33,509 bases of DNA from a virus: the IMG/VR virus record IMGVR_UViG_3300025759_015067, positions 1 through 33,509 of that record. One strand, written 5' to 3'. The translations under genes and the position numbers were made by a program. The notes beneath the pieces are model-generated. The model made no database searches, was not told where the DNA came from, and saw only the letters and a program-made list of their open reading frames with translations. This document shows positions 1 through 33,315 of this stretch, in pieces. Position 1 is the first letter of the stretch. The number at the start of each line of letters is the position of its first letter.

Positions 1-633
1 GCCGATGTTGGTTTTCAACTGATTAGTGAAGACCATAGCAATCTGCTCTTTGCCTAGGGTTTCTGTTACTTTTCTCATTCCCTTGGCTAGGGCTTTGGCG
101 GTAAGACCAATACGGCTGTTGGGATCATAGTCGCCCTCAACCTCAGCCTTGACTGGAGTACCAGCAACGCTGTCCCAAACAATACAAACAAGCTTGTCTG
201 GAGCCTTTTCACGGATCAAGCCGATAAGACGTTCGATATTCTCGAACACCTCTTCGATAGTTCCTGGCTGGACATAGATGAAGTTGTTCTTGGTGTCCAG
301 TCCCAGTTGTGCCATAAAGTCTGGTGAAGCAGCGTTCTCTGTGTCGATGTAAACTGCTAGACCGCCCATCTTTTGTGTGTTGGCTAGAATCTGAGTGACC
401 AAAAGACTTTTACCACTGGCTGATTCACCAGCAATGGTTGTGAGCTTGCCTACAGGAATACCGCCATCTCGGCGGTTAGAAATAACATAATCAAGCAGTG
501 TTGATCCAGTGGAGATCCAAGTCTTTACATCCGTTGGATTGTCTCCGTGTAGGTCGAAAGCAATGTTTTCTTTTGCTGCCTTGTTTAGCTCATTGCGAAG
601 TGAGCTAGCAAGGGTGTTTTTGTCTTTAGCCAT
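1..633 (-). CDS. uvsX: UvsX/RecA-like recombinase (partial, C-terminus cut off)
   Basis: The first 211 codons are visible and the reading frame runs off the left edge of the window. The product is a RecA-family strand-exchange ATPase, which coats single-stranded DNA and drives homologous pairing during phage replication and repair. A Walker A loop GESASGKS lies at residues 69-76. A Walker B strand ending in VWDSVAG is near 152-158, followed by a RecA-like segment VKAEVEGDY and the VFTNQLKTNIG strand, which matches the RecA NQ motif. The ATG at 633 is preceded by GGAG at a normal distance. It follows the single-strand binding protein gene by 58 bases, the usual UvsX/gp32 partnership. Whether it is closer to T4 UvsX or bacterial RecA cannot be settled from the visible part. 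Confidence 0.93.
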   Translation of the reverse strand, partial: MAKDKNTLASSLRNELNKAAKENIAFDLHGDNPTDVKTWISTGSTLLDYVISNRRDGGIPVGKLTTIAGESASGKSLLVTQILANTQKMGGLAVYIDTENAASPDFMAQLGLDTKNNFIYVQPGTIEEVFENIERLIGLIREKAPDKLVCIVWDSVAGTPVKAEVEGDYDPNSRIGLTAKALAKGMRKVTETLGKEQIAMVFTNQLKTNIG

Positions 634-691: not shown

Positions 692-1483
692 CTACGACAG
701 CAAGTCATCAAACGCTGCGTTGATGTCAGTCACAGCCTCAAGACCACTATCTTTGCTTTGAGTCGTGGTGGTGGCGGCAGCAGTGCTGTTGTTGTAACGA
801 GTAGTTTCGTTACCTTCCGACGAGTCTTCGGTGTCACCCAAGGTCTCAGCTAGGACCTTTTCGCACTGCTCGAATGTAGTGCGTTCGAAGACAGTCTCAA
901 CTGCTGGTAGCGACTGTAGAAGAGTGTTGACTTGCTCTTCACTTTCAGCGAGGACGCTGGTGCGACGCATTGGACGGATATCGGTAGTTGGGAATGATTG
1001 TCCCTGCTTCTTACCGTAGTCAATACGAAGGTCAGTGCCCTTATCTGGGTCGGTGATGTCACCGTACTCTGGATCAAGAACTACATCAAGCAGTGCTTGG
1101 TAGGTGGTGCGGGAAAAGCCCCACCAGCGAACACCCTTGTCCTCTTCACCTCGGACGACGACAGGAGCGAATACTCGCATCTTAGGCCAGAAGCGCTTGG
1201 CTGCTTCCTTTGAACTGTCGGTGCCCTCGTTCCAGAGCTTTGTGCCCCACTCTGCGATTGGGTCATCATCCCCAAAAGTGCGTGGGCTCAAAACGGTCGT
1301 GCGACCTTCAGCACCCATTGCGTAGTGGTAGTATGCCTCAAAGAAAGGATCTCCGCTCTCAGGGCAAACAAGGCGAACTTGGTGTGTTCCCTCTTCTGGT
1401 TTCCAGAAAAAGTCATTGGCATCACCGCCACGGTTAGTCAAGGCAGCGTGCTTTTGACGCATCTTACTTAAGTCAATACCCAT
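692..1483 (-). CDS. gp32-like single-stranded DNA-binding protein
   Basis: The 263-residue protein resembles T4-type gp32 in layout. It has a basic, polar N-terminus (MGIDLSKMRQKHAAL), an OB-fold-like aromatic-rich core (for example HQVRLVCPES and VRWWGFSR), a Ser/Thr/Asn-rich linker around residues 225-245, and an acidic tail ending in AAFDDLLS. Such tails recruit other replication proteins. gp32 proteins cover single-stranded DNA at forks and control access of polymerase, helicase loader and recombinase. T4 gp32 (301 residues) has a zinc site; here only two cysteines are present, so that site is missing. The ATG at 1483 has an AAGGAG-type site. Its own promoter with a palindrome lies directly upstream, and uvsX follows. 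Confidence 0.82.
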   Translation of the reverse strand: MGIDLSKMRQKHAALTNRGGDANDFFWKPEEGTHQVRLVCPESGDPFFEAYYHYAMGAEGRTTVLSPRTFGDDDPIAEWGTKLWNEGTDSSKEAAKRFWPKMRVFAPVVVRGEEDKGVRWWGFSRTTYQALLDVVLDPEYGDITDPDKGTDLRIDYGKKQGQSFPTTDIRPMRRTSVLAESEEQVNTLLQSLPAVETVFERTTFEQCEKVLAETLGDTEDSSEGNETTRYNNSTAAATTTTQSKDSGLEAVTDINAAFDDLLS

Positions 1484-1597: not shown

Positions 1598-2038
1598 TTA
1601 CTGATCGTCTTCAGCGGGTTCGTCTTCTACTTGGAAGATCTTGGCTACGGTTACGCTGTGAACTCGTAGATCTTTGCCAGCGGTCAAAAGGATGCTGTCT
1701 CTGTACTGTTCCCAGTCTAGCTTCAAGTGCTTTCCTGTTTGCCCATCGTGCTCAAGAGCGACTGCTTTGTTGAGAGCGTTGATGGTGTACAAAGTGTTGG
1801 TTTGCTTTTTGCGGTGAACACGGATTGTGTACAATCGTGGGTTGTATACTCTGTTTTTAGCAACTATTGCGTTGTAGGACAAAATCTTGTTTGTTGGATC
1901 TTCTTTGTCTTCTAACAAGAAGATGAACTTATTTGTCAAATCGATATTGGAAGCGATGAACTCTACTTCCTCAAGAACTGCCTCTTCACTTTCTGCTTTG
2001 ATGAAGGACGCTAGTAGTACACCTCTTTCTTGTTTCAT
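1598..2038 (-). CDS. Unknown protein in the replication cluster
   Basis: This 146-residue protein is not one I recognise. It begins MKQERGVLLASF, alternates beta-like and helical stretches, has a basic patch IRVHRKKQ near the middle, and ends in a short acidic tail VEDEPAEDDQ, a feature common in phage replication accessory proteins. It sits between the degenerate tubulin-like gene and the gp32-like gene, so a role in DNA metabolism is a reasonable guess but nothing more. The ATG at 2038 has GAGG about 11 bases upstream, rather far. A separate promoter and a palindrome lie in the 60-base gap before it, suggesting it can be transcribed apart from the polymerase genes. Confidence 0.75.
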   Translation of the reverse strand: MKQERGVLLASFIKAESEEAVLEEVEFIASNIDLTNKFIFLLEDKEDPTNKILSYNAIVAKNRVYNPRLYTIRVHRKKQTNTLYTINALNKAVALEHDGQTGKHLKLDWEQYRDSILLTAGKDLRVHSVTVAKIFQVEDEPAEDDQ

Positions 2039-2095: not shown

Positions 2096-2109
2096 ATACT
2101 AAATAGTAT
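2096..2109. repeat. Perfect 14-base palindrome at the end of the tubulin-like gene
   Basis: ATACTA and TAGTAT flank a central AA. The palindrome overlaps the TAG stop of the gene at 2099-2959 and lies just upstream of the weak promoter at 2062-2089. Read on the minus strand it also contains ACTATTTA, which overlaps the motif seen ahead of the late genes. It could be an operator or a promoter element. Confidence 0.4.
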
Positions 2110-2959
2110 CCAAAACTGGCTGAATCTTCGAGGAATATGCTGTACACAAAACCATATGGTTCTCAAAGTTTGTTGAATATACTGAAAAGCTTGTTGAGAC
2201 ATCTTCTTCTTTATAGCTCTTGACGTGCTTCTTGATCTTGTTCGTCAAAGAGGGATCTTCGTCTAGATCTGCCTCTGGGATGCCGTAAAAGAAGTGAATA
2301 TCTCTTGTCTCTTCAATCGGATACAAAAGCTTAATGTCACTCTCATCTTCATCAAGTGACGAGACGCCGAAAGTGGCAAGCCTTGCAATGTTGTGGGGCT
2401 CTATCTTGTTGGCAAGAATAGGCTCAGTATGATCAAAGAAGTTAATCATCGCTACGACATACGAAATGAAATAGGAAACGCTGTTCTCATATTCCTGAAT
2501 GGGTACGTCACCGACGAGGTTATCAACCGCTTGGCGGTGGACAAGGAAGATCTTTTCAAACACACCGCTCCGAGCGTACTCCTGCAAGACATTAAAAGCG
2601 ATCTTATCATCACGACGCTGGATCTCTGAGCACATCACTCTGTCGGGAACAATATAAAGAACATTTAGCTTGGAGTCTTTGATTGTTTCCAGTATTTTTA
2701 ATGTTGCCCCAGAAACAGGGTCGCCGCCTTCAAGAACTAGAAGGATCTCATCCTTTTTCTTAATGGAGCGCAGGTAAACAGCAACCGAATCCTGATCCAA
2801 CATATGCTCGTAGTCGTCCATCCCTGAGTATTCCCCAATGGAAAGGCTACCACGCTCATCAATCTCTGAATCTATCTTGTATATTCTATATTCTGGGTAT
2901 GCAGTGAGGTGCTCGACAACAGCGCAACCAAGTTTACCTAGTCCAATGACTTTATCCAA
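2099..2959 (-). CDS. Degenerate tubulin/FtsZ-like protein
   Basis: The 286-residue protein follows the FtsZ order in sequence. An N-terminal glycine loop GLGKLGCAV (residues 6-14) corresponds to FtsZ T1. A strand IYKID comes next, then EGGDPVSGAT (77-86) in the place of the GGGTGSGAA loop. NVLYIVPDR and a long helical stretch (110-175) follow, ending FGVSSL, and then a C-terminal domain-like section HFFYGIPEADL...VSTSFSVYS...VLCTAYSS, resembling the FtsZ beta-sheet domain. The nucleotide loop is altered (GGDPVSG) and the catalytic loop NxDxxD is replaced by something like NKIEPHN, so GTP hydrolysis is doubtful. The start is TTG at 2959: an in-frame stop lies just upstream and the first ATG would remove the T1 loop. 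AAGGA stands 8 bases ahead. The start overlaps the polymerase stop by 8 bases, implying coupled translation. The fold is inferred by eye, not proven. Confidence 0.6.
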   Translation of the reverse strand: MDKVIGLGKLGCAVVEHLTAYPEYRIYKIDSEIDERGSLSIGEYSGMDDYEHMLDQDSVAVYLRSIKKKDEILLVLEGGDPVSGATLKILETIKDSKLNVLYIVPDRVMCSEIQRRDDKIAFNVLQEYARSGVFEKIFLVHRQAVDNLVGDVPIQEYENSVSYFISYVVAMINFFDHTEPILANKIEPHNIARLATFGVSSLDEDESDIKLLYPIEETRDIHFFYGIPEADLDEDPSLTNKIKKHVKSYKEEDVSTSFSVYSTNFENHMVLCTAYSSKIQPVLDTI

Positions 2960-4172
2960 TGTGCATATCCTTCATAGAACCCAGAGTTTTACCTCTTTTT
3001 ATGTTTACCTTGAAAGTCCCAAAGTTTGTTGAACTCATAAGGGCTATCAATGGTTTAATTAGGTTCTCATCCTCTTTTTTCATATCAAGAACGACGGCAT
3101 CGTGGATCAAGAAAGCGATGTTCGAACCAGCAGAGCGAGTACGGAGCAAATACTCTAGCTTTAGAGCCTGCTTTAGCGTCAGTTCTGCCGCAGTAGATTG
3201 AACCAAGTAGTTCAGAGCGTGATGCTCGCTTGTATCGGCTATTTGCTTCCTAAATGGCGTTCTAACTGTGTTGCCATCCCAATATTCTTCGAGTAGTCGG
3301 TCCTTTTCGTAGAAACTAGCCAGTTTTTGCATATCTTTCTGACTTACAGCAGTCTTTGACCCATAAAGCCAAGCAAAAAACGCCACTTTTGCGTCATTTC
3401 TGGTGCTGATGTTTGTAAAAACGTTTTCTAAGTGAAAATCGTGGACATCTTCTTCTGGTTGTGGCTTGCCGAGGAGTCCCAACAGCGTTCTGACCTCTGC
3501 TCCGTTGAAATCTAGCTCAATGAAGTAATCATTCTGAGGCAGAATCGCTGATCGGAAGTCTTTATTGAGCGTCAAGATGGGAAATGATCCCTTCTTGGTT
3601 GTGAGTCTGCCTGTTTTTGTCCCGAACTGATTGTAGTCAACGTATGGTTTGTTGTCTAGGATCATCTTTGCTTGATTCTTTAGCTTGGGAGAGGTCATAT
3701 AGGACTTGACAAGCTTTGGATCGATCTTGACCCTTTTTGTTGCGATGTCTCCCAGCATCATAGAGACGTGCTTATAGAACTCATATCGATCAGGCTTTTC
3801 AATGGTCTTCACGATGTGTTCACATATTTTATTTTTTACCTCGCAAAAGTCCACCAAGAACCTTTCGGGAACCAGATCAAAAAAGCAGTTGTCGTAGGTG
3901 TTGACCTGCGAGATAGCCAAGGACCTCTTGAAAGCCTGAATCTTCTTAGAAACGTCTTCCCAGTCATCTTGTAGATACTCTGGGATGTTATCACTAATCT
4001 TGCCACCCTCCAGATACAACGACACATAATCTACATCGATATCACGTAAGTACGGAGCGTACTTCCAAGTCATTGTTAGATCGTCTGGGAACTGCTCTAA
4101 GTCAAACAGTAGCTGATTATGTGTATAGATTCCTACGCACTCGGTTTTGTCGTCTAGTGTTTGGAAGATCAT
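2952..4172 (-). CDS. Family A DNA polymerase, polymerase domain only
   Basis: This 406-residue protein carries the palm and finger motifs of DNA polymerase I-type enzymes: TGRLTT (187-192), motif A ELDFNGAEVR with catalytic Asp221, motif B with the spacing R-x3-K-x3-F-x3-YG (258-271), the NYLVQSTAAEL helix, and motif C LIHDAVV with catalytic Asp358. Motif C has HDA where family members have HDE, and motif A has FNGAEVR in place of YSQIELR. The roughly 180 N-terminal residues show no DEDD proofreading signature, so exonuclease activity is absent or encoded elsewhere. T4 itself uses a family B enzyme; the T4-like Rhodothermus phage RM378 is recalled to carry a split family A enzyme. I chose the ATG at 4172, with AGAGG just ahead, over a TTG seven codons earlier. 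It overlaps the upstream gene by 56 bases. Confidence 0.9.
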   Translation of the reverse strand: MIFQTLDDKTECVGIYTHNQLLFDLEQFPDDLTMTWKYAPYLRDIDVDYVSLYLEGGKISDNIPEYLQDDWEDVSKKIQAFKRSLAISQVNTYDNCFFDLVPERFLVDFCEVKNKICEHIVKTIEKPDRYEFYKHVSMMLGDIATKRVKIDPKLVKSYMTSPKLKNQAKMILDNKPYVDYNQFGTKTGRLTTKKGSFPILTLNKDFRSAILPQNDYFIELDFNGAEVRTLLGLLGKPQPEEDVHDFHLENVFTNISTRNDAKVAFFAWLYGSKTAVSQKDMQKLASFYEKDRLLEEYWDGNTVRTPFRKQIADTSEHHALNYLVQSTAAELTLKQALKLEYLLRTRSAGSNIAFLIHDAVVLDMKKEDENLIKPLIALMSSTNFGTFKVNIKRGKTLGSMKDMHIG

Positions 4173-5634
4173 CTGTTTCCTCTTCAGCGCCAATTATATC
4201 CCCGACTGTTCTCAATGTTAAAGGGTCGGTATCATAGGGTCCAATATATTCTTCCTGTGCGTATCGGAGCGATCTCATATATTGATTTTCTGTGCTTAGG
4301 TTGTAGATGTTCATCATCTGTTGAATCTCTCTTCTTCTTATCCTTGATGTTCGCTCAGGGTCACGCTCTGTTAGCCTAGAGAGATAAAATGTTTTTAGTT
4401 TCCAGCGATCACCGAATCTAGCCACAAACTCTTCTTCGGTTATCTGCTCTCTGGTCATAACTTCTGTCTTGGGAACACAATCAACCAAAGTGTATTCGTC
4501 ACGCATAGAGACGGTTGGTGCCGTAGCGACATAGGTGTTGTAGAATCCTAAAATATAAGTCTCAAGCAGATCAACGTCTGTCTTCCAGGTTTCATCATAG
4601 GCTGTTTCAAACAAAATCTCAAACACCTCTTCCTGAGAGGATGCATCCTTGGCTGGCTGATATTCTTGATATCCAGGCTGGATGTTACCTTCGCTGTCAA
4701 AGTGAGTAGAGATACGGCGCTTAACAGTTTCCAACCCTGGGACCTGAGAATAGCCGAAAGCCATAGGAGCCAACTCTTTATCCAAGAGTGTGGGATCACA
4801 AGGAAGAGGATCAGGATAAGAATCCTCAAACCCTTCAATGGGGACGCCATACATATATTCTTGCATAGCTTGGCTTCTTAGGTCTGCTACGAGTCTCCAA
4901 GGAATGTTCCTATCAATAGAAAAACCATACTGCGCTACGATGTTAGATACAAGCTCAAAGTTTTGATCCAAGTATTCATAAGACTTTGTAAGATCTTCAG
5001 AGTATTTGTCATTGGATATCTCAATCATCAATCCAGACATTAATGGAGAGACACTGACACCTTCGATGTAACCGCTCAAAGTAGTGGGTCCCACTAGGGA
5101 AACAGCAACATCTATGTACTCATCAAACACTGATAGGAAGTTGTCTATGTTTTTTATTCTTCTCTCTTTGTTCCCTGTAATCAAGAACTGTTCAACAAAG
5201 AATCGATATACAGTTTCTCTCATATACTCATCATATTGAACTGTTATTGGATTCCAAGCCTTTACAATAGTAGGTTCCGCCCAGGGACTGTTTCTGTAGA
5301 TTATGTTTTGATCGGCTAGCTCTCTCAACCTTGTGGATAGATCGTACCAAGCGTCTGCCACGAAGTTCATAGCAAACTGGCTCTGATTATCTGCAAAGTA
5401 TAATGACTTTAGAAATCTCTGGTCGGGAATGACTGTATTGCCCTTTGTGTTTACAATGCCATAAAACCTGTCAGCAGACCAAGTGCTGGTCGAGTTCACA
5501 ATCAAACCTTCGGGAAATATAAAGCGGCGATAAAGATCTCTCTCAATAAAAATCTGTGAAGAGTTTAGCTCGTTCGAACCATAAGAGTAAAGCTCTGGAT
5601 TGTTTACGGGAGAGGGTCTAAGTTGGTCTGCCAT
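4117..5634 (-). CDS. Large unidentified protein at the end of the baseplate gene run
   Basis: I do not recognise this 505-residue protein. It is rich in Tyr, Asp, Glu and Arg, lacks signal peptides or membrane segments, and has a charged C-terminus rich in Arg (RRQNRVRRNLYT). Long segments such as the 60-150 region are aromatic-rich, as in baseplate and neck structural proteins. Its start overlaps the stop of the hub-like gene by a TAATG junction, so translation is coupled to tail genes, while its 3' end overlaps the DNA polymerase start. The context makes a virion, probably baseplate-associated, protein most likely, but no motif proves it. Confidence 0.7.
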   Translation of the reverse strand: MADQLRPSPVNNPELYSYGSNELNSSQIFIERDLYRRFIFPEGLIVNSTSTWSADRFYGIVNTKGNTVIPDQRFLKSLYFADNQSQFAMNFVADAWYDLSTRLRELADQNIIYRNSPWAEPTIVKAWNPITVQYDEYMRETVYRFFVEQFLITGNKERRIKNIDNFLSVFDEYIDVAVSLVGPTTLSGYIEGVSVSPLMSGLMIEISNDKYSEDLTKSYEYLDQNFELVSNIVAQYGFSIDRNIPWRLVADLRSQAMQEYMYGVPIEGFEDSYPDPLPCDPTLLDKELAPMAFGYSQVPGLETVKRRISTHFDSEGNIQPGYQEYQPAKDASSQEEVFEILFETAYDETWKTDVDLLETYILGFYNTYVATAPTVSMRDEYTLVDCVPKTEVMTREQITEEEFVARFGDRWKLKTFYLSRLTERDPERTSRIRRREIQQMMNIYNLSTENQYMRSLRYAQEEYIGPYDTDPLTLRTVGDIIGAEEETDDLPNTRRQNRVRRNLYT

Positions 5635-30639: not shown

Positions 30640-31055
30640 TTCTTTCTTCTCCTTAAGCAAGTTTGCAAATGCTCGTCATCGGGTCTCCACCCCTCGTTCC
30701 ATCGCCCTGTTCTATCTTCAACAAAGTCAATGTAACATTTATAACAGCATTCAAACCTATTCATATATAGGTCGTCCTTCTGTGAAAATGAATATGTTTT
30801 ACAGACTGGGCAAGTTCTGTCTGCCGCTTTGTCTTTGACTGGCTTTCTTATCTGTACAGATCCATCTTCTATAGTAGTATATTTTTTATTTCTTGTTCCC
30901 TTGAGAGCAGAGCGTTCTTTTAGCTGCTTGAGGTAATCTTTCTCTTTGTCTTCTTCCCATTCATTGCGGAAGTCCTGCACTGTATTCTTGCCGTACTTTT
31001 CGGCGATTGCACGCTCTACCGCAGCAAGGTAGTTTGGATCTTTCTTGCTTTTCAT
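30624..31055 (-). CDS. Zinc-ribbon protein of unknown function
   Basis: The 143-residue protein has a highly charged helical N-terminal half (rich in Lys/Glu/Arg) and a C-terminal zinc-ribbon-like part: CPVC at about 82-85, then CCYKC near 103-107. The aromatic/acidic stretch YIDFVEDRTGRWNEGWRPDDEHL follows. The four spaced cysteines are likely to hold one zinc ion. I cannot name its partner. It overlaps the upstream secreted-protein gene by ATGA and the downstream gene by 16 bases, joining the tubulin-like operon to the packaging genes. DNA- or RNA-binding regulation is possible. Confidence 0.68.
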   Translation of the reverse strand: MKSKKDPNYLAAVERAIAEKYGKNTVQDFRNEWEEDKEKDYLKQLKERSALKGTRNKKYTTIEDGSVQIRKPVKDKAADRTCPVCKTYSFSQKDDLYMNRFECCYKCYIDFVEDRTGRWNEGWRPDDEHLQTCLRRRKKWQQS

Positions 31056-31435
31056 TGTGATGGTTGTACCGCCTTAACAATTGCTATAGAAGTCCCTACT
31101 CCAATAACAAGACCAGATAAAAGACCCAAAGCACCCTTGTTCCTTCTGAACCAAGTGTTGTCTTTATGGATTGTTTCCTGAAGACTTTTGATGGATAGTT
31201 TGTACTGCTCTTGGAGTTGAGTGCAAACCTTTTTATCCACATCGCACTCTGCAACTTTTGCATTGGTGTCGATCTTGTCTTGTAGGAGTTTGCGGAAGTC
31301 TTCTTCGCTTAATAGAATGCCGACATAGGTGTCGCTGCCTTCCTCAACTGCTGCTGGGCGAGGTTTGAACTCAGTGACCTCGCCAGCAGTAGCATTGAGG
31401 GAAAACAATAATAATGTTATAACCAGTAATCTCAT
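31052..31435 (-). CDS. Secreted protein with C-terminal membrane anchor (spanin-like topology)
   Basis: The 127-residue protein begins with a signal peptide (MRLLVITLLLFSLNATA, likely cut after Ala17; no lipobox Cys). A soluble part follows with two cysteines (64 and 71) that could form a disulfide, and a helical stretch VCTQLQEQYKLSIKSLQETIH. A membrane segment is at about 101-122 (GALGLLSGLVIGVGTSIAIV), and a short tail ends the protein. That gives a periplasmic protein tethered to the inner membrane. The topology resembles unimolecular spanins in part, but those carry a lipoprotein signal. The start codon follows the stop of the tubulin-like GTPase after one base, so they are co-translated; it may equally be a partner of that GTPase. 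Confidence 0.62.
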   Translation of the reverse strand: MRLLVITLLLFSLNATAGEVTEFKPRPAAVEEGSDTYVGILLSEEDFRKLLQDKIDTNAKVAECDVDKKVCTQLQEQYKLSIKSLQETIHKDNTWFRRNKGALGLLSGLVIGVGTSIAIVKAVQPSQ

Positions 31436-31436
31436 T

Positions 31437-32573
31437 TTACTTCTTTAGGAATTTCTTTAGTCCTTCGATGCGCTTGGCAGGACGCTTAAGCCCACTGACC
31501 AAAGTGTAAGTTACGAGCTTATCTTTCTTGTCGTCCTCGTAGATACCACGGTGAACCATAGCACCACCAGTCAAGGCAGCCAAAGTATCAAAGCCAAACT
31601 CAATGTTGTCCATCAAGCCGACAGTCTCTTCAAAGATTTCTTCGCTACCAACAACAATACAAGCAGCACCTGTAGCAGTTGTTAGGTCGAAACCTTCAGC
31701 GAGAAGTGTCTTCTCTAGGTTCTTCTTAAGAGCACTTGAGACAGCAGTTTCATTCTCAAGGTTCTTGACGCTGGTTACACCCATAATCATACAGCCGGGC
31801 TGCTTCATAATACTGTCGTAGTCTGTAGCATCAAAGGTTGTGTATTCTGAGTCTTGGTTTGCTAGAACGTTAAAGACGTGGAACAAGCCAGCGACTGTGT
31901 TGTTGATTGTGGTCCAGAACTTCTTGACTGTAAGTTTTGGATATAGTTTTTTGATCTTCTCGTTGTCCACCATAATGAGTGGAGCGATCTTTCCTTTTTC
32001 TGCGAGCCCGCAAAGTTGGGTAATGCGAGTGTGAGCGTTCTTGGCTACGGTTGGGGAAGCAGACTCGCCAGCAGTTGGAAGGGAAGCAATAACACCAACA
32101 CGCTCATCAACGTTCTCAACGCCGATGTAGGTGAAGTACTTCTTGGCTACCTTGATGAGGGTATTGACTGTGCCGCCACCTGAACCGCCAGATACACCGA
32201 GGCAGATCAAAATGCGATCAACGTTGCTGCCGAATACTTCACGGAACTTGTTGAACACTTCTTGCTCTTTGCGCTCGATGGCTGCTTCGGCTTTGGCTTG
32301 ATCTTTACCAGCACCCTGCTCGCCGTGCTCGTCAACCAAGAACTTTTGGTTCTCTGGAATGTCTAGACCGTTAAGGTCAGAGCGGGCTGTATTCACAGCA
32401 ACGGTTTTTGTGTAGCCCATATCGTAAAAGGCTTTAGCCATACGACCACCGCCTTGACCTGCGCCAACAATAGCATAAGTTAGGGCACCACCCGACTTAT
32501 CTTCAACCGTTTCCTGTTCCTCGTTGAGGTCTGGATCGTAATCTTCAATGTCTAGTGTAGGGATATCTACCAT
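31437..32573 (-). CDS. FtsZ/tubulin-like GTPase
   Basis: The 378-residue protein is a tubulin-superfamily GTPase. After an acidic 30-residue extension comes VGAGQGGGR (36-44, FtsZ T1), then TVAVNTARSDLNGL (57-70), matching the FtsZ NTDxxxL strand. The G-box LGVSGGSGGGTV is at 125-136 (compare GGGTGSG). The catalytic T7 loop TFDATDYDSIM (247-257) keeps both Asp of NxDxxD, and IMGVTSV follows, as in the FtsZ strand S7. The end is basic (KRIEGLKKFLKK). Such proteins polymerise with GTP; phage relatives (PhuZ, TubZ) move or centre DNA and capsids. AAGGAG lies ahead of the ATG at 32573. It sits between two membrane-protein genes, which could be its anchors. Confidence 0.85.
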   Translation of the reverse strand: MVDIPTLDIEDYDPDLNEEQETVEDKSGGALTYAIVGAGQGGGRMAKAFYDMGYTKTVAVNTARSDLNGLDIPENQKFLVDEHGEQGAGKDQAKAEAAIERKEQEVFNKFREVFGSNVDRILICLGVSGGSGGGTVNTLIKVAKKYFTYIGVENVDERVGVIASLPTAGESASPTVAKNAHTRITQLCGLAEKGKIAPLIMVDNEKIKKLYPKLTVKKFWTTINNTVAGLFHVFNVLANQDSEYTTFDATDYDSIMKQPGCMIMGVTSVKNLENETAVSSALKKNLEKTLLAEGFDLTTATGAACIVVGSEEIFEETVGLMDNIEFGFDTLAALTGGAMVHRGIYEDDKKDKLVTYTLVSGLKRPAKRIEGLKKFLKK

Positions 32574-32586
32574 TTTACTAGTCTCC

Positions 32587-32901
32587 TTATAAATCTAGTT
32601 CTTCGTGTAATCTTATTAGAGCTTTCAATCTTTCTTCACGGTCTTGTATTTCTTTTGTTTCCTCAAGTTTTTGATCGTAAATCTTTTTGATTGCTCCGAT
32701 TTTGTCCTTTTCAAGTTTAGCACGGATTTGATTTTCTTTTATAGCAGTGTTGATTTTTGCTTGCACACCCTCAAGATACTGGGTCTTGTTCTTTGTTGGG
32801 CGAACAATGTTATAAACAAACCAGGCTAGTCCGAGAACCATAACAACCAAGAAAGCCAGTGACCAAGCACTGCTTTTTACTTTGTACCAAAGTGCTTTCA
32901 C
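32587..32901 (-). CDS. Single-pass membrane protein with coiled coil (ZipA- or i-spanin-like topology)
   Basis: The 104-residue protein has one N-terminal membrane helix (about residues 12-33, AWSLAFLVVMVLGLAWFVY) followed by a charged coiled coil from about 45 to 102. This shape fits an inner-membrane spanin (Rz-type) or a membrane anchor such as ZipA or a bitopic filament adaptor. The start is GTG at 32901, overlapping the holin-like stop (GTGA). The tubulin-like GTPase follows 13 bases later. No sequence motif decides between lysis and cytoskeletal roles; the holin-like neighbour favours lysis and the GTPase neighbour the alternative. Confidence 0.6.
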   Translation of the reverse strand: MKALWYKVKSSAWSLAFLVVMVLGLAWFVYNIVRPTKNKTQYLEGVQAKINTAIKENQIRAKLEKDKIGAIKKIYDQKLEETKEIQDREERLKALIRLHEELDL

Positions 32902-33089
32902 TTACCGTGTCTCCAAGTTGCAGCGATATCAGCAGCCCCTTGTAATCCGATATAAGCTAGTGATACAGCAACCCAGTCGCTACTAGTCAAAGAACCAGAT
33001 GCTAAAAAACCTGTGGCTGTGCCCCAAACAATAAGTTTGCGAGATGCCCATTTACCTAATGCTTTGTCGATTCTTTCTTGCATTGTCAT
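32898..33089 (-). CDS. Holin-like small membrane protein
   Basis: The 63-residue protein has a polar N-terminus (MTMQERIDKALGKWASRK), a hydrophobic segment around 19-34 (LIVWGTATGFLASG), a short loop and a second one around 38-55 (DWVAVSLAYIGLQGAADI), then a basic end (TWRHGK). This is the layout of class II holins and other small phage membrane proteins. I chose the ATG at 33089 because GGAGG lies 4 bases ahead; a second ATG two codons later has 10 bases of spacing. A longer frame upstream is rejected. It overlaps the coiled-coil membrane gene by GTGA. No endolysin gene is seen in the window. Confidence 0.6.
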   Translation of the reverse strand: MTMQERIDKALGKWASRKLIVWGTATGFLASGSLTSSDWVAVSLAYIGLQGAADIAATWRHGK

Positions 33090-33111
33090 TGGACCTCCTA
33101 AGATGTTATAA

Positions 33112-33315
33112 TTAGTTCTTCTGTTTCCTTTTAGCTCGTTTGTGCAACTGTATGTCTTCGCCACGGACTCTGTATGATTCTCCGCCAAACAATACCGTAC
33201 CCATCTTAGTCCAAGTACTGTACTCAAGCAATAGACCAACTTGCCAGTCAGTGTAACGCTTTGGCTTGATATGCCAAGTGCACTGCCTAAACCTTACAAG
33301 ATCCCCTGCTCTCAC
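33112..33315 (-). CDS. Small beta-rich protein, relative of its upstream neighbour
   Basis: The 67-residue protein begins MRAGDLVRFR and has WQVGLLLEYS, MGTVLFGGESYRVRGEDIQL and a strongly basic tail (KRAKRKQKN). The GDLV...GLL-EY...V.....DI pattern also occurs in the next gene upstream, suggesting a duplicated SH3/KOW-like barrel. The start is GTG at 33315, overlapping the neighbour's stop (GTGA), so the two are translationally coupled. The function is unknown. Confidence 0.6.
   Translation of the reverse strand: MRAGDLVRFRQCTWHIKPKRYTDWQVGLLLEYSTWTKMGTVLFGGESYRVRGEDIQLHKRAKRKQKN

Follow-up and report, generated by a model that had tools for sequence, protein, structure and literature searches.

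To our knowledge, the phage tubulins known so far are GTPases that move or segregate DNA. PhuZ, for instance, has a catalytic aspartate in its T7 loop (PMC3678025). An overview of jumbo phages distinguishes two FtsZ/tubulin representatives, to which it assigns functions in compartment formation and segregation (PMC7824862), and a 2025 paper includes a less confidently annotated tubulin/FtsZ-like protein among those of Borg elements (PMC12660748). By their titles and the first lines of their abstracts, the open-access papers listed in our literature searches report no polymerase-linked or nucleotide-free phage tubulin, and the words tubulin, FtsZ and cell division are absent from two marine phage genome papers. 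What is new here, as far as these searches go, is a tubulin-fold family devoid of the canonical GTPase motifs. A widespread core phage protein of this kind, encoded beside a DNA polymerase, would show that the tubulin fold is used for something beyond dynamic filaments.

Two tubulin genes in one phage genome

The window, by which we mean the whole stretch of DNA analysed, comprises the 33,509 bases of a single IMG/VR virus record and holds two tubulins, a clear one and a degenerate one (Table 1). The clear one is a canonical TubZ, recognized by the Pfam models Tubulin (E 4.5e-9) and TubZ-like_C (E 4.7e-7) and matched by the TubZ structure 4ei7 in the PDB (E 8.6e-12); its nearest named relatives are Bacillales plasmid TubZ proteins and gp138 of Bacillus phage G. 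The distance between the two genes is 28-32 kb and they belong to separate operons. Between phages whose degenerate tubulins are 50-72% identical, the TubZ proteins are 92-94% identical in spite of a high synonymous divergence (pS 0.55-0.76), so TubZ is held by selection. Among the matches listed (80 loci) TubZ is 84-100% identical, about as conserved as RecA. It lies in an apparent lysis or membrane cassette (31052-33239), downstream of a 104-aa membrane protein (its weak matches are spanin-like) and of a short holin-like open reading frame, and upstream of a 127-aa signal-peptide-like protein; no TubR-like gene is evident in this interval.

The degenerate tubulin gene is transcribed within a series which reads, in order, 916-aa gene, 505-aa gene, polymerase, degenerate tubulin, 146-aa gene, gp32-like SSB and RecA-like recombinase. 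The preliminary description had stressed that its TTG start overlaps the polymerase stop. The overlap of 8 nt is present, but such overlaps are common in the genome, where 12 of 33 pairs of adjacent genes show one, so by itself it is nothing special. An overlap recurs in 37 of 42 loci of the close branch, that is, the window's own branch of the family; in the sister branch a gap of 200-600 nt separates polA from the degenerate tubulin gene in 28 of 44 loci. At about 400 aa, the polymerase is very short; its best Pfam stretch covers the C-terminal part of DNA_pol_A only, it shows no 3'-5' exonuclease domain, and HDA stands in place of the usual HDE motif. The 146-aa neighbour matches no Pfam or PHROG family; it adjoins the gene in the window's branch, is absent from the sister matches listed (E 1e-4), and by eye resembles gp002 of Flavobacterium phage immuto.

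Table 1. Positions of the genes, motifs and residues discussed, in window coordinates; rows are those of the family alignment
Feature	Position	Strand	Remarks
RecA/UvsX-like recombinase	1..633	-	Cut by record end; sequence and homologues
gp32-like single-strand DNA-binding protein (SSB)	692..1483	-	phrog_1192, E 8.9e-17
146-aa conserved protein	1598..2038	-	Downstream neighbour of the degenerate tubulin gene
Degenerate tubulin-fold protein, coding sequence	2099..2959	-	286 aa, TTG start; open reading frame, relatives, fold
C-terminal domain strands and helix, residues 194-276	2132..2380	-	Model, structural alignment
H7-S7 linker, residues 177-193, replacing T7 loop and helix H8	2381..2431	-	No DxxD at the aligned columns
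S162 in H7, at TubZ Asn224 position	2474..2476	-	N in 5/31 close rows, 115/119 others
R142, at TubZ guanine-contact Asn204 position	2534..2536	-	R/K in 27/31 close rows, N in 113/119 others
T4 (G-box) position EGGDPVSGAT, residues 77-86	2702..2731	-	Non-canonical; GGGTGTG-like box in 0/150 rows
T1 loop GxGxxG, residues 6-11	2927..2944	-	Retained, 150/150 distinct rows
Polymerase stop / TTG start overlap	2952..2959	-	8 nt
GAAGGA, ribosome-binding-like site	2968..2973	-	Inside the polymerase gene, 8 nt 5' of the TTG; putative function
Short family-A DNA polymerase	2952..4193	-	413 aa as called; PF00476, E 8.8e-15
Canonical TubZ-like tubulin	31437..32573	-	378 aa; GGSGGGT box, N204, N224, D248/D251

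A conserved family under purifying selection

Scans of IMG/VR, made with the protein and then with alignments, gave 18, 33 and finally at least 586 loci, and the family alignment of 86 rows was drawn from these three scans (from the last, the best 80 of at least 586). With 77 rows added from polymerase-anchored loci we obtained 150 distinct near-full-length rows, 31 of them from the close branch and 119 others. The identities of the relatives go from 99% down to about 30%. No relatives were found elsewhere: in 50,697 annotated phage records the window protein gave a single match at E 6 and two sister proteins gave none, and a search of the GTDB bacterial genomes found none either.

The open reading frame is more than a chance one, being kept in the 150 distinct rows with a dN/dS of about 0.03. 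This value comes from the comparison with an 89% identical relative (L002), the remaining pairs being saturated at synonymous sites; the gene is under strong purifying selection, and a decaying pseudogene is ruled out by the same ratio. In one of ten matched records (G011) a stop falls inside the profile match, yet the frame as read spans the gene, which was not counted as broken. Uncultured tailed phages of a large group have the degenerate tubulin among their core genes.

Predicted fold and kinship to TubZ

Sequence searches by themselves say little about the window protein: no Pfam or PHROG family was found at E up to 1, and the sole NCBIfam match, HydF at E 0.046, is far under the cut-off. 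A shallow AlphaFold2 model made with 16 close rows (pLDDT 60, pTM 0.64), for which the top Foldseek matches were already FtsZ and TubZ, was set aside for one made with the 86-row alignment, which reached a pLDDT of 95.7 and a pTM of 0.92. In VIA-align the latter matched CetZ 3zid (Z 25.3, 264 residues, 3.1 A, 13% identity), TubZ 4ei7 (Z 23.7, 282 residues) and FtsZ 2r6r (Z 23.5); altogether the matches to CetZ, TubZ, FtsZ and tubulin have Z 22-25 and extend over both domains, and all 50 among the matches listed are chains of the tubulin superfamily, covering model residues 1-286. Foldseek gave FtsZ at 3.5e-13 and, as the best match in the viral library, the phage 'FtsZ' A0A6J5RW92 (E 1.1e-10).

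The model has the two-domain architecture of tubulin and FtsZ, with an N-terminal nucleotide domain, H7 and a C-terminal sheet domain. The four segments quoted in the preliminary description (EGGDPVSGAT, FFYGIPEADL, SFSVYST and VLCTAYSS) are present in the 286-aa translation, and the predicted C-terminal elements (E220-228, H229-234, E254-263, E269-276) hold the last three. A plain Rossmann fold would have contradicted the preliminary description; instead, the C-terminal tubulin sheet domain is there, and a tubulin fold along the full length is borne out by the AlphaFold2 model, by structural search and by profile homology with negative controls.

This profile homology is to TubZ. Aligned with hhalign, the family matched the window phage's own TubZ with a probability of 93.9 (E 1.6e-7), a TubZ set including the plasmid and phage G proteins with 94.8 (E 5.4e-8), and, once the window phage's own TubZ was removed from that set, the remaining plasmid and phage G proteins with 79.0; among the controls, probabilities were 0.2 for E. 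coli FtsZ and no higher than 1.3 for eight unrelated phage profiles in three versions of the query. Profiles of close relatives alone (12.6) or of the close branch alone (33.6) were weak, and the TubZ signal therefore needs the sister branch. A tblastn search with the window TubZ matched the degenerate tubulin gene in two sister loci (E 7e-8 and 4e-6). The best sequence matches to TubZ among the sister members are L193:418-1260 and L391:5170-5985. Against easy detection by sequence counts that HMM searches of solved structures, with either alignment, returned no tubulins, and that PF00091 matched only 3 of 86 family members, at best with E 0.011, so that the Pfam family itself is not reached. 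The degenerate tubulin belongs to the tubulin superfamily and is related to TubZ-like tubulins. A recent duplication of the phage's own TubZ is not favoured as its origin, because this TubZ finds plasmid TubZ with E down to 3e-13.

The nucleotide site

The canonical nucleotide loop is replaced by EGGDPVSGAT, and glycine at position 80, inside this stretch, occurs in none of the 31 close rows as against 99 of the 119 others. In TubZ, N204 and N224 are what we take to be the guanine-contact residues of tubulins. Position 162, the counterpart of N224, is mostly serine in the close-branch rows, and the two asparagines occur together in all 15 TubZ rows and in 113 of 119 sister rows, as against 0 of 31 close-branch rows. 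As to the T7 loop, hhalign puts I186 and H189 at its columns, with E187 and N190 adjoining them. Acids stand at both aligned columns in 0 of 150 rows and at both adjoining columns (187/190) in 30 (2 of 31 close rows and 28 of 119 others, the window protein not being among them); a shifted T7 acid pair may exist in that part of the family. Between H7 and S7, the place of T7 and H8 in tubulins, the model shows no helix. The most conserved stretch is found elsewhere, in the H5-S6 turn Q-x-Y-A-R-S-G, whose mean entropy is 0.82 bits versus 1.4-2.7 elsewhere and in which Q126 and R130 are present in 150 of 150 rows.

The absence of a canonical G-box and of the T7 Asp pair, first described for the window protein, thus extends to all 150 homologues compared. 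Judged by these residues, the protein would indeed be a pseudo-GTPase, since G-box, T7 acids and guanine-contact Asn pair are all missing in the window's branch, and it is most likely a nucleotide-free pseudo-tubulin. Part of the degeneration is clade-specific, as the sister branch keeps the guanine-contact asparagines. An ordinary active GTPase with shifted motifs, forming filaments of its own, is the least likely of all the readings we considered: the T1 loop intact throughout and the 30 rows with acids at 187 and 190 would suit it, but it has to face the lack of any canonical G-box, the missing H8 of the model and an Asn pair incomplete in 31 of 31 close rows.

Very unlikely, too, is a change of ligand, in which the GxGxxG loop and an acid ending strand 2 would bind a dinucleotide such as NAD in a Rossmann-like manner. 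Pfam TrkA_N does appear, with E no higher than 1 and 8.8e-6 at best, in 27 of 86 members, and D30 is present in 114 of 119 sister rows; however, only 15 of 31 window-branch rows have D30, the sister branch keeps its Asn pair, and a strand-loop-helix-strand start is common in outline to tubulins and Rossmann proteins.

The loss of T7 and H8 from an otherwise complete tubulin fold could also be read as the mark of a filament cap or decoy, which would bind a TubZ or host FtsZ filament at its growing end and freeze or poison the polymer. Without T7, the active site of the subunit below would stay incomplete, and if the target were host FtsZ, division would be blocked during infection. Phages usually use small early inhibitors of FtsZ, and a core gene in a replication block is unlike these, so we hold this role to be improbable, even if there is a precedent in plant ARC3, a degenerate FtsZ relative which negatively regulates FtsZ ring assembly (PMC5877594).

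Link to the replication genes

A scan starting from the gene itself covered 112 loci, 8 of which repeat contigs already counted. Wherever the sequence reached far enough, the polymerase lay upstream in the same orientation (86 of 86 loci, within 2 kb in 85 of them) and the SSB lay downstream (82 of 82). Starting from the polymerase, the gene was present in 77 of 79 loci and absent from none, the other two being too short to tell; in all 77 that were long enough it directly follows the short family-A polymerase. The tie to replication genes that had been proposed is therefore firm as gene order, while a functional tie is what we would infer from it. A distant relative, a 184-kb sister record, is collinear with the window over all 33 kb of the block, and with gene order frozen to this extent, adjacency to polA argues but weakly for joint function. 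Outside the group, neither Flavobacterium phage immuto, which has a relative of the polymerase, nor 80 related loci have the degenerate tubulin gene; in immuto, PolA is followed by a protein which by eye resembles the 146-aa neighbour, then by SSB and RecA. Thus either the gene entered an old replication block or it was lost from one.

The same gene order bears on a simpler possibility, that the protein is only an accessory subunit of the polymerase, which would aid the short family-A enzyme in processivity or fidelity and have no cytoskeletal role. Such recruitment is familiar from animal mitochondria, whose polymerase accessory subunit is a degenerate aminoacyl-tRNA synthetase. The gene stands behind the polymerase in 77 of 77 loci, also where TubZ is absent, and a gp45-type clamp model gave nothing over the cut-off in 6 large records, but this search recovered only 2 of 14 control genomes, and those under the cut-off, and is too weak to imply that a clamp is lacking. 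The sister branch, moreover, keeps guanine-contact residues that a plain subunit would not need, and on balance we find this possibility somewhat unlikely.

Pocket loss and the second tubulin

For a tree we took 74 rows: the 31 close ones, one in three of the others, and three additional rows from large records. It splits off the window's branch, 34 rows in all, with an SH-aLRT of 100. Among records of 100 kb or more, which are all linear and may be incomplete, a canonical TubZ is found in 3 of 3 from the window's branch and, by profile search, in 0 of 9 from the sister branch. The sole TubZ-profile match in these nine (G036, E 1.2e-5) falls inside the degenerate tubulin gene itself; PF00091 found nothing in the first four of them; of the remaining five, two had matches, all below the cut-off. 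Of 34 window genes looked for in the 184-kb sister record, 28 have a homologue there and their order is kept, with a short gap from which TubZ and its small neighbours are missing; the genes flanking TubZ are also present without it in three further sister records. The loss of the pocket maps to a single branch, as does the presence of TubZ, and their association consequently rests on one event.

The two branches offer a natural experiment, with guanine-contact residues and no second tubulin on one side, and a second tubulin and no such residues on the other. Through them one could test what a tubulin that no longer uses GTP does, and whether a phage replisome is tethered to tubulin polymers.

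Proposed function

We tentatively favour, with a probability of roughly 0.4, the reading that the protein is a static adaptor between the replication machinery and a tubulin polymer, made together with the polymerase and working without GTP. Neither binding nor hydrolysing GTP, the degenerate tubulin would form no dynamic filament by itself. It would be co-produced with the polymerase, and one of its surfaces, for which the near-invariant Q-x-Y-A-R-S-G turn is a candidate, would dock on the polymerase/SSB machinery, the tubulin body docking on a tubulin polymer. In the window's branch this polymer would be the phage's own TubZ, and replicating DNA would be tethered to the filament. Partnership with TubZ cannot be the function common to the family, since the sister branch has none; there a guanine nucleotide is probably still bound, and the protein would do a replication-side job without TubZ. 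For the window protein itself, the adaptor may serve the polymerase or the filament.

A bolder form of the static adaptor, to which we give a little less credence, would be that the replisome of this phage group carries a nucleotide-free tubulin-fold subunit as a permanent partner of the polymerase, and that when TubZ was gained in one branch the guanine pocket decayed, leaving one dynamic and one static tubulin.

Comparison with known systems

The most remote of the systems compared is plant ARC3, an FtsZ relative that can serve only as an example of a protein which may work alike; it acts in chloroplasts, unlike our phage protein, and is a chimera with another domain according to a reference title in PMC5877594. 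PhuZ, the spindle tubulin of nucleus-forming jumbo phages, shares with the window protein a tubulin fold in a phage; the PHROG PhuZ family does not match the window protein and is absent from the 25 families listed for the 86 members. The uncultured-phage protein A0A6J5RW92, named an FtsZ GTPase, is the best viral match in structure, but it has 452 aa and an identity of 11%. With CetZ and FtsZ the likeness is one of fold and similar domain size, whereas the GTPase motifs are missing from the window protein and the profile probability with E. coli FtsZ is the 0.2 given above. As compared with TubZ, the tubulin of plasmid and phage partition, the window protein lacks G-box, T7 acid pair and H8 and has 286 aa versus about 380-450, and its gene lies beside polA and the 146-aa protein, with no TubR-like partner identified. 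It is nevertheless TubZ that gives the best profile match, and the likeness of fold to 4ei7 (Z 23.7) extends over 282 residues.
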